Shown in pieces: positions 26,450 through 34,603 of a DNA stretch of 64,000 nucleotides. The translations under genes were made by a program, and so were the position numbers. Below the pieces are notes generated by a model. It did not search any database, was not told where the DNA came from, and worked only from the letters and a program-made list of their open reading frames with translations. Numbering within the stretch: the stretch's first letter is position 1; every line of letters starts with the position of its first letter. Source of the DNA: Clostridiales bacterium. Its GTDB lineage: Bacteria; Bacillota; Clostridia; Lachnospirales; Lachnospiraceae. The DNA lies in NCBI GenBank assembly GCA_022770525.1, contig JALEHN010000104.1, positions 1 to 64,000 of the forward strand, given 5' to 3'.

Positions 26450-26797
26450 TCAGTATTCACATACAGGATCTTCAATCAGTGTTGCCGCTGTGAATTCGTG
26501 TTTGTGCAAAGGATTTCCGTTTTCCGTTGTACATCCTTTAATTAAGTGCACATGGCGGCCGCAGCCGACATCTTTAGCCGGTCCTGTTGTTCCGCAAAAT
26601 TCATGGCGGTGTCCGTTACATGAATCTGTCGTAAACTTAACATCATGAACATGACTGTCTTCGTAAGGAATTGCATCACCTGTTACAGTTGCAAATCTAT
26701 GGTTATGGGCATAGTCACAGCAGCCGAAAATTTTCACACTGCCCTGAAGTTCGTGGTTATGCTGTTTTGGTTTACAAGGTTTATGATTATTATCCAT
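26450..26797 (-). CDS. YmaF-family His/Cys-rich protein
   Basis: A 115-residue soluble protein of the YmaF family, extremely rich in histidine and cysteine: KQHNHELQG, GCCDYAHNHRF, EDSHVHDVKF, CNGHRHEFCG, GCGRHVHLIKG, NPLHKHEF. The regularly spaced H-x-H pairs suggest repeated metal-binding loops. No catalytic motif, signal peptide or membrane segment. ATG 26797 is chosen because GAAAGGACG precedes it; upstream codons run into a structured leader. Family function is unknown; metal binding is an inference from composition. It is a single-gene transcript with a roughly 175-base leader and its own terminator. Confidence 0.82.
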   Translation of the reverse strand: MDNNHKPCKPKQHNHELQGSVKIFGCCDYAHNHRFATVTGDAIPYEDSHVHDVKFTTDSCNGHRHEFCGTTGPAKDVGCGRHVHLIKGCTTENGNPLHKHEFTAATLIEDPVCEY

Positions 26798-26863
26798 AAA
26801 TGAGCGTCCTTTCATATAATTAATTTCTTTGTACAGTATATTATATGTGAAGACCCCTGATTT

Positions 26864-26973
26864 TGTGTTATATATCCGCCAGCCGGAGCGTGTTCCTCCG
26901 GGATAATCTATGTGTGAACCGAGACACCTCCGATACGGGCAAAACCGCACTCCTCCCGGAACTGGCGGACACA
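26864..26973 (-). ncRNA. unidentified structured 5' leader upstream of YmaF gene
   Basis: A closed structure lies in the untranslated space before the YmaF gene. The outer stem TCCGCCAG (26969-26962) / CTGGCGGA (26882-26875) is extended by TGTG/CACA across an AT-rich bulge. Inside are CCGGAG/CTCCGG (26883-26888 with 26896-26901), a GTGT/ACAC hairpin and a CGGG/CCCG hairpin. It starts within a few bases of the predicted transcript start. It matched none of the riboswitch consensuses I recall (FMN, TPP, SAM, cobalamin, c-di-GMP, fluoride, guanidine, glycine, ZTP). It could be a cis-regulatory RNA or a palindromic repeat. Confidence 0.5.
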
Positions 26974-26978
26974 ATCTG

Positions 26979-26984
26979 ATTATA
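26979..26984 (-). promoter_or_regulatory. extended -10 promoter for leader and YmaF gene
   Basis: On the minus strand TGC-TATAAT is an extended -10 element; the -35 region is poor. It puts the transcript start near 26972, exactly at the edge of the structured leader. Confidence 0.6.
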
Positions 26985-27077
26985 GCATAGCATGAAGAAA
27001 AAAGATAGAAAAACCTTTTTGGACAGTGTTGAAAGGTAAATTTATCTTATAGCCTGCCAAAATTAGGATTGCGGGCT

Positions 27078-34309: not shown

Positions 34310-34460
34310 GTGATTCATTTGTTAAAAAATGTGTTAAAAACGTTCACAAAATACTTGTATTATGATAGCTACAGGTATATAATAAATTTTGTAATTTGTA
34401 GCTGTTTGGAGCCAGGCATTTTGAGGTTTGCTCTGAATAGTCTTAGTAATTGAATAAAGG

Positions 34461-34572
34461 TTTTTCGGGGCGGGGCGTAATTCCCCACCGGCGGTATAGT
34501 CCGCGACCCGCGCAAGCGGCTGATTTGGTGAGATTCCAAAACCGACAGTTAAAGTCTGGATGAGAGAAAGAC
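34461..34572 (+). promoter_or_regulatory. FMN riboswitch (RFN element)
   Basis: The conserved RFN core is present in order: GGGGCGGGGCGTAATTCCCC, ACCGGCGGTA, CCGCGACCCGC, GGCTGATTTGGTGAGATTCC, AACCGACAGTTAAAGTCTGG and ATGAGAGAA. FMN binding should favour the terminator at 34604 and switch off ribD-ribE-ribBA-ribH. In the untranslated stretch 34310-34769 nothing else was recognised before base 34461. Confidence 0.97.
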
Positions 34573-34603
34573 AATACATAGCGTGCATTTTATTTGTTTA
34601 TGA

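Follow-up and report, generated by a model that had tools for sequence, protein, structure and literature searches.

A structured RNA with a covarying four-way junction in Lachnospiraceae, most probably the product of a free-standing single-copy gene

The window, that is, the whole stretch of 64,000 nucleotides analysed here, carries on its minus strand a YmaF gene and, upstream of it, a GC-rich element whose four helices form a four-way junction. The features of the locus are listed below in the order in which they would be transcribed.

26979..26987, minus strand: -10 box TATAAT (26979-26984) with an extended TGC (26985-26987), from the sequence
26871..26973, minus strand: probable small RNA of about 103 nt, matched by the covariance model (101 bits, E 1.4e-21)
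26962..26971, minus strand: 5' strand of the closing stem P1, in which the pairing is kept and the sequence is variable (double changes at 9 of 10 pairs)
26951..26960, minus strand: P2, a 3-bp hairpin UCC-GGGA-GGA with a GNRA-type loop (alignments)
26933..26950, minus strand: P3 hairpin GUGCGG...CCGUAU with conserved G-U wobbles at its base (first pair G-U in 44 of 46 sequences, third pair in 33 of 46)
26884..26932, minus strand: P4 long hairpin CGGAGGUGU...ACACGCUCCG, with a one-base bulge and an inner stem (double changes at 11 of 14 pairs)
26903..26918, minus strand: P4 apical loop, the largest single-stranded stretch, with conserved edges YUCACA and UAUCC and a variable middle (alignment columns)
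26873..26882, minus strand: 3' strand of P1, followed in the window copy by AUAUAACAC without a U-tract (a U-tract is found there in 32 of 44 genera)
26840..26845, minus strand: possible separate weak -10 box TATAAT for YmaF, without a good -35 box, by sequence inspection only
26450..26797, minus strand: YmaF coding sequence, 115 amino acids (PF12788, E 2e-34), with the ribosome-binding site AAAGGA at 26807-26812

Elsewhere in the window, an FMN riboswitch (RF00050, 113 bits) was found at 34457-34575 on the plus strand.

The initial annotation had described a closed, GC-rich structure at 26864-26973, a transcript starting near 26972, and an AT-rich tail leading to the start of YmaF, and our results agree with all three points. 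The fold of 26864-26973 (minus strand) has a minimum free energy of -44.9 kcal/mol (z = -2.8), which was equalled by two of 200 shuffled sequences, and that of 26868-26975 (minus strand) has -45.1 kcal/mol (z = -3.0), which none of 200 shuffles equalled. The perfect TATAAT with TGC on its 5' side predicts a start near 26972, and YmaF begins at 26797, beyond the tail. The window copy retains the fold and the extended -10 box, and lacks both a TTGCAA-like -35 box and a U-tract. The structured RNA at this locus is real beyond chance, and 46 genus-level or phage sequences show covariation for the same fold.

A DNA search of 200 Lachnospiraceae genera gave matches at E <= 1e-6, with 72-85% identity, in 17 other genera, and a covariance model (R1) was built from 17 sequences. 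With R1, the RNA was detected in at least 45 of 299 Lachnospiraceae genera (one genome each), exactly once per genome, the match in one genome (G136) being partial; the figure of 45 of 299 is a lower bound, since the filters were tightened for searches of more than 40 genomes. The window's own genome likewise has one copy. When stability was checked at the genus level, the RNA was found in 2 of 2 genomes, the other genera tried being singletons. In order- and phylum-wide samples, nothing outside Lachnospiraceae rose above the noise (about 24-26 bits). An exact-pattern scan of GTDB species yielded 93 contigs, partly from the same genomes as the 299, and R1 matched all 93 at full length; the 80 titles listed among these 93 are of Lachnospiraceae, its genera or unplaced Clostridia-type records, with one titled Oscillospiraceae. 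The carriers include Enterocloster citroniae WAL-17108, Hungatella hathewayi WAL-18680 and Clostridiales bacterium 1_7_47_FAA. In this sampling, the RNA family is confined to Lachnospiraceae, plus at least one phage. The main alternative put forward in the initial annotation, a dispersed palindromic repeat, does not agree with one copy in each of 45 genomes, and looking for the same structure elsewhere in the genome, as had been suggested there, revealed a single copy and no dispersed repeat. A REP- or MITE-like repeat, which would have many copies per genome, was thus ruled out.

A covariation analysis of homologues, also suggested at the outset, showed that the fold covaries strongly and that it is under selection at the RNA level, as seen from compensatory changes. 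The four helices comprise 10 bp in P1, 3 bp in P2, 6 bp in P3 and about 14 pairs in P4, which carries the large apical loop. In the 46-sequence alignment (mostly one sequence per genus), which was fitted to the model and therefore favours it, 93.2% of the cells were paired, compared with 77.0% in shuffled alignments, and double changes were present at 25 of the 33 pairs. The covariation score was 0.495, against 0.188 for shuffled alignments and 0.08-0.12 when the pairing partners were slid, and none of 500 shuffles reached it. Our first alignment, of 17 sequences made by MAFFT without a structure model, gave the same answer, and covariation was also supported in a set of 97 sequences. Pairs that do not vary lend no covariation support of their own. 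The strongest couplings between columns were those of the modelled pairs, and no coupling indicative of a further pseudoknot, including one between the P2 and P4 loops, was found in the alignment columns. GAAA loops were also seen together with UCCC loops, which does not fit such an interaction. Conservation is high in the junction, P2, the base of P3 and the P4 stem, and the middle of the apical loop is variable; for conservation we relied on the genus set, because the GTDB search pattern had fixed some of the bases in the 97-sequence set.

Both ends of the RNA are marked in most genera. A -10 box with at least five of six matches was found in 43 of 44 genera, mostly 2-7 nt 5' of the model start, and 38 of those 43 also have a TTGCAA-like -35 box; this sigma-A-type promoter has a fixed spacing and places the predicted start at the closing stem P1. 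At the four positions immediately after P1, T has a frequency of 0.59-0.70, compared with about 0.3 further on, and the larger set agrees. At least four T residues in the 7 nt after P1 are present in 32 of the 44 genera, compared with 24% in control sequence. With the U-tract directly behind P1 in these genera, the RNA seems to terminate its own transcription, P1 and the U-tract probably forming an intrinsic terminator. The remaining 12 genera, the window's among them, have no U-tract, and in some of them the RNA is immediately followed by a separate hairpin or by a tRNA. At locus L136 (6862-6965; same genome as L070), a tRNA-Ala starts 1 nt past the model end; its position fits a mature 3' end at P1, and the RNA and the tRNA-Ala may form one precursor cut by RNase P. 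A general association with tRNA genes was considered and rejected, since the enrichment was seen against plain sequence and not against an intergenic control from the same loci (11% vs 13%).

The RNA is independent of its neighbouring genes. In 54 of 86 loci, the RNA and the next downstream gene are encoded on opposite strands, no family beyond common ones is shared among the neighbouring proteins, and the 69 downstream proteins have no Pfam theme. In seven of nine pairs of related loci, at least one flank shows approximately random similarity (<= 0.45), and the RNA is still 87-94% identical. Near the RNA in one genome, L022:909-1178 (plus strand) matched the BsrG RNA family below threshold (39.5 bits; gathering score 55).

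These contexts bear on the proposal, made in the initial annotation, that the element is a cis-regulatory leader of YmaF, riboswitch-like and possibly metal-sensing. At the window locus such a leader might well be suspected: the RNA and YmaF share a strand, the YmaF start follows the RNA after about 74 nt, no terminator intervenes, the U-tract of the RNA is missing, and P1 as a terminator stem recalls the logic of an expression platform. The proposal nevertheless has next to no chance of being correct, given that the downstream genes of the RNA are mostly on the opposite strand and share no functional theme, that most carriers of the RNA have no YmaF (found in only 10 of 200 Lachnospiraceae genera), and that no credible copy was detected near the YmaF homologues of nine other genera (R1 model, about 1.5 kb, filters off; best 14.7 bits). 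One genus (G051) has both the RNA and YmaF, but on different contigs. A leader role is therefore refuted as the function of the RNA family, and YmaF is a chance neighbour outside the RNA system. Because the window copy has neither the U-tract nor the -35 box, YmaF may receive read-through from the promoter of the RNA in this species, and the copy itself (26979-26987, 26864-26872) may be turning into a leader or decaying.

We interpret the element as a free-standing structured small-RNA gene, present once per genome and equipped with its own promoter, and assign this reading a probability of about 0.85. Counting against it are the 12 of 44 genera that have no U-tract and the patchy presence in about 15% of the sampled genera, a pattern seldom expected of a core RNA. 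The same patchiness, together with the lack of synteny, could point away from a host RNA and towards a DNA-level or mobile feature (a palindromic repeat, an integration site or phage cargo), and copies on phage contigs could be cited for this as well. Three scans of IMG/VR recovered an intact copy (90 bits), with promoter and U-tract, at L177:7304-7401 (minus strand; IMGVR_UViG_3300006217_000306), where it lies antisense between two genes matching PHROG transcription regulators, after which a putative terminase pair can be read in the sequence. On another contig (L176:9193-9269, minus strand; IMGVR_UViG_3300006131_000053), near PAPS-reductase-like and ParA/ParB-like genes, only the promoter and the 5' half are present, and unrelated sequence takes the place of the 3' half; this may be a relic, a decoy or a recombination point. 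A third hit (L188) was a false positive. We regard a feature of either kind, DNA-level or mobile, as very unlikely: each genome has exactly one copy, the conserved G-U wobbles are sensible only in an RNA of this strand, the promoter and U-tract are kept, and the neighbours are mostly ordinary chromosomal genes. Moreover, no match to the RNA was found in the INPHARED phages (50,697 records) or the PLSDB plasmids (72,556 records), and neither multiple copies nor target-site duplications nor an integrase at most loci were seen.

For the small-RNA gene, the following course of events can be proposed. The predicted transcription would start from the sigma-A-type promoter at the first base or bases of P1, and the RNA would fold into a compact four-way junction of P1, P2 with its GNRA-type loop, P3 with its wobble base and P4 with its large apical loop. 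In most species, P1 and the U-tract would terminate transcription and a folded RNA of about 100 nt would be released. The released RNA would act in trans, a mode that is strongly indicated, and would do so without Hfq, and a partner protein or RNP would recognise its shape. The copy of the window species would have lost the U-tract and the -35 box and would merely happen to sit upstream of YmaF.

We favour a protein or an RNP that reads the shape of the RNA over antisense pairing, because the conserved parts are the junction, P2, the P3 base and the stem of P4 and the middle of the apical loop is variable, and we put this preference at even odds. The competing reading, which concerns the mode of action and not the existence of the gene, is that target mRNAs are bound by base pairing to the apical loop of P4 (about 16-19 nt), with the remainder of the molecule as scaffold and terminator. 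A large single-stranded loop with conserved edges and a free-standing gene with promoter and U-tract would suit such an antisense RNA; the variation in the middle of the loop, beside a nearly invariant junction and P2/P3 base, would not, and we consider this reading possible but rather doubtful. It is further weakened by the host: Hfq (PF17209) was detected in none of 80 Lachnospiraceae genomes, with matches in the positive-control genomes, and an Hfq-dependent antisense small RNA was ruled out on this ground. As a tentative and more speculative idea, which we think unlikely to hold in full, the RNA could represent a new class that engages core machinery of gut Lachnospiraceae (RNA polymerase, the ribosome or a regulatory protein) by its shape and be released only when P1 folds and terminates, and phages could have taken it up for host control, given the intact copy beside late-gene regulators and the truncated one.

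A single-copy, strongly selected RNA that is absent from Rfam and occurs in dozens of genera of a main gut family, including the cultured E. citroniae and H. hathewayi, offers a concrete new target for study, since few small RNAs have been characterised in these bacteria and no Hfq was detected in them. With a covariance model and gene boundaries in hand, the RNA can be put to direct test, and its presence on a phage contig hints that the role may be one that phages profit from taking up.

The element in the window has no match in Rfam 15, either at gathering scores or at E <= 10, and the RNA in nine homologous loci likewise has none; the initial annotation was right to call the structure unrecognised, and a known riboswitch family was ruled out by the same searches. 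A four-way junction and a stand-alone gene do recall 6S RNA, SRP RNA, Y RNA and the yjdF-like tRNA-shaped RNA, so that the RNA might be a diverged member of one of these classes. In view of the missing Rfam hit, this is most improbable, the more so since 6S RNA was present in 50 of 50 carriers and non-carriers tested and the Ro/TROVE protein, the partner of Y RNA, in none of the 80 Lachnospiraceae genomes. A replacement of 6S RNA, which coexists with the RNA in every carrier tested, and a Y RNA, whose protein was not detected in these 80 genomes, were accordingly ruled out.

Like 6S RNA (RF00013), the new RNA is free-standing and stably folded and has its own promoter, but the two differ in size and shape: 6S RNA, at about 180 nt, forms one long hairpin with a bubble at its centre, and the new RNA, at about 100 nt, forms a four-way junction. 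Stand-alone structured noncoding RNAs of unknown function, such as raiA and OLE, were found by covariation, are independent of their neighbours and are limited to certain Firmicutes. The new RNA shares these three features; it differs from these classes in that no Rfam family model matches it, that its whole junction is closed by a stem and that the U-tract comes after that stem. With riboswitch aptamers (yjdF, tRNA-like fold; PMC9142559) it shares a conserved multi-helix junction and a variable closing P1, but it has no consistent downstream gene, and in most loci the downstream gene is on the opposite strand. A survey of human microbiomes (PMC8040213) predicted 3161 candidate structured-RNA motifs from gut metagenomes; a search of its main text found no Lachnospiraceae RNA named, and its motif tables may include the RNA unnamed. 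In the papers searched, neither text queries nor core sequence strings led to a description of the RNA. The most fitting label is that of a new family belonging to a known kind, the stand-alone structured RNAs of bacteria.
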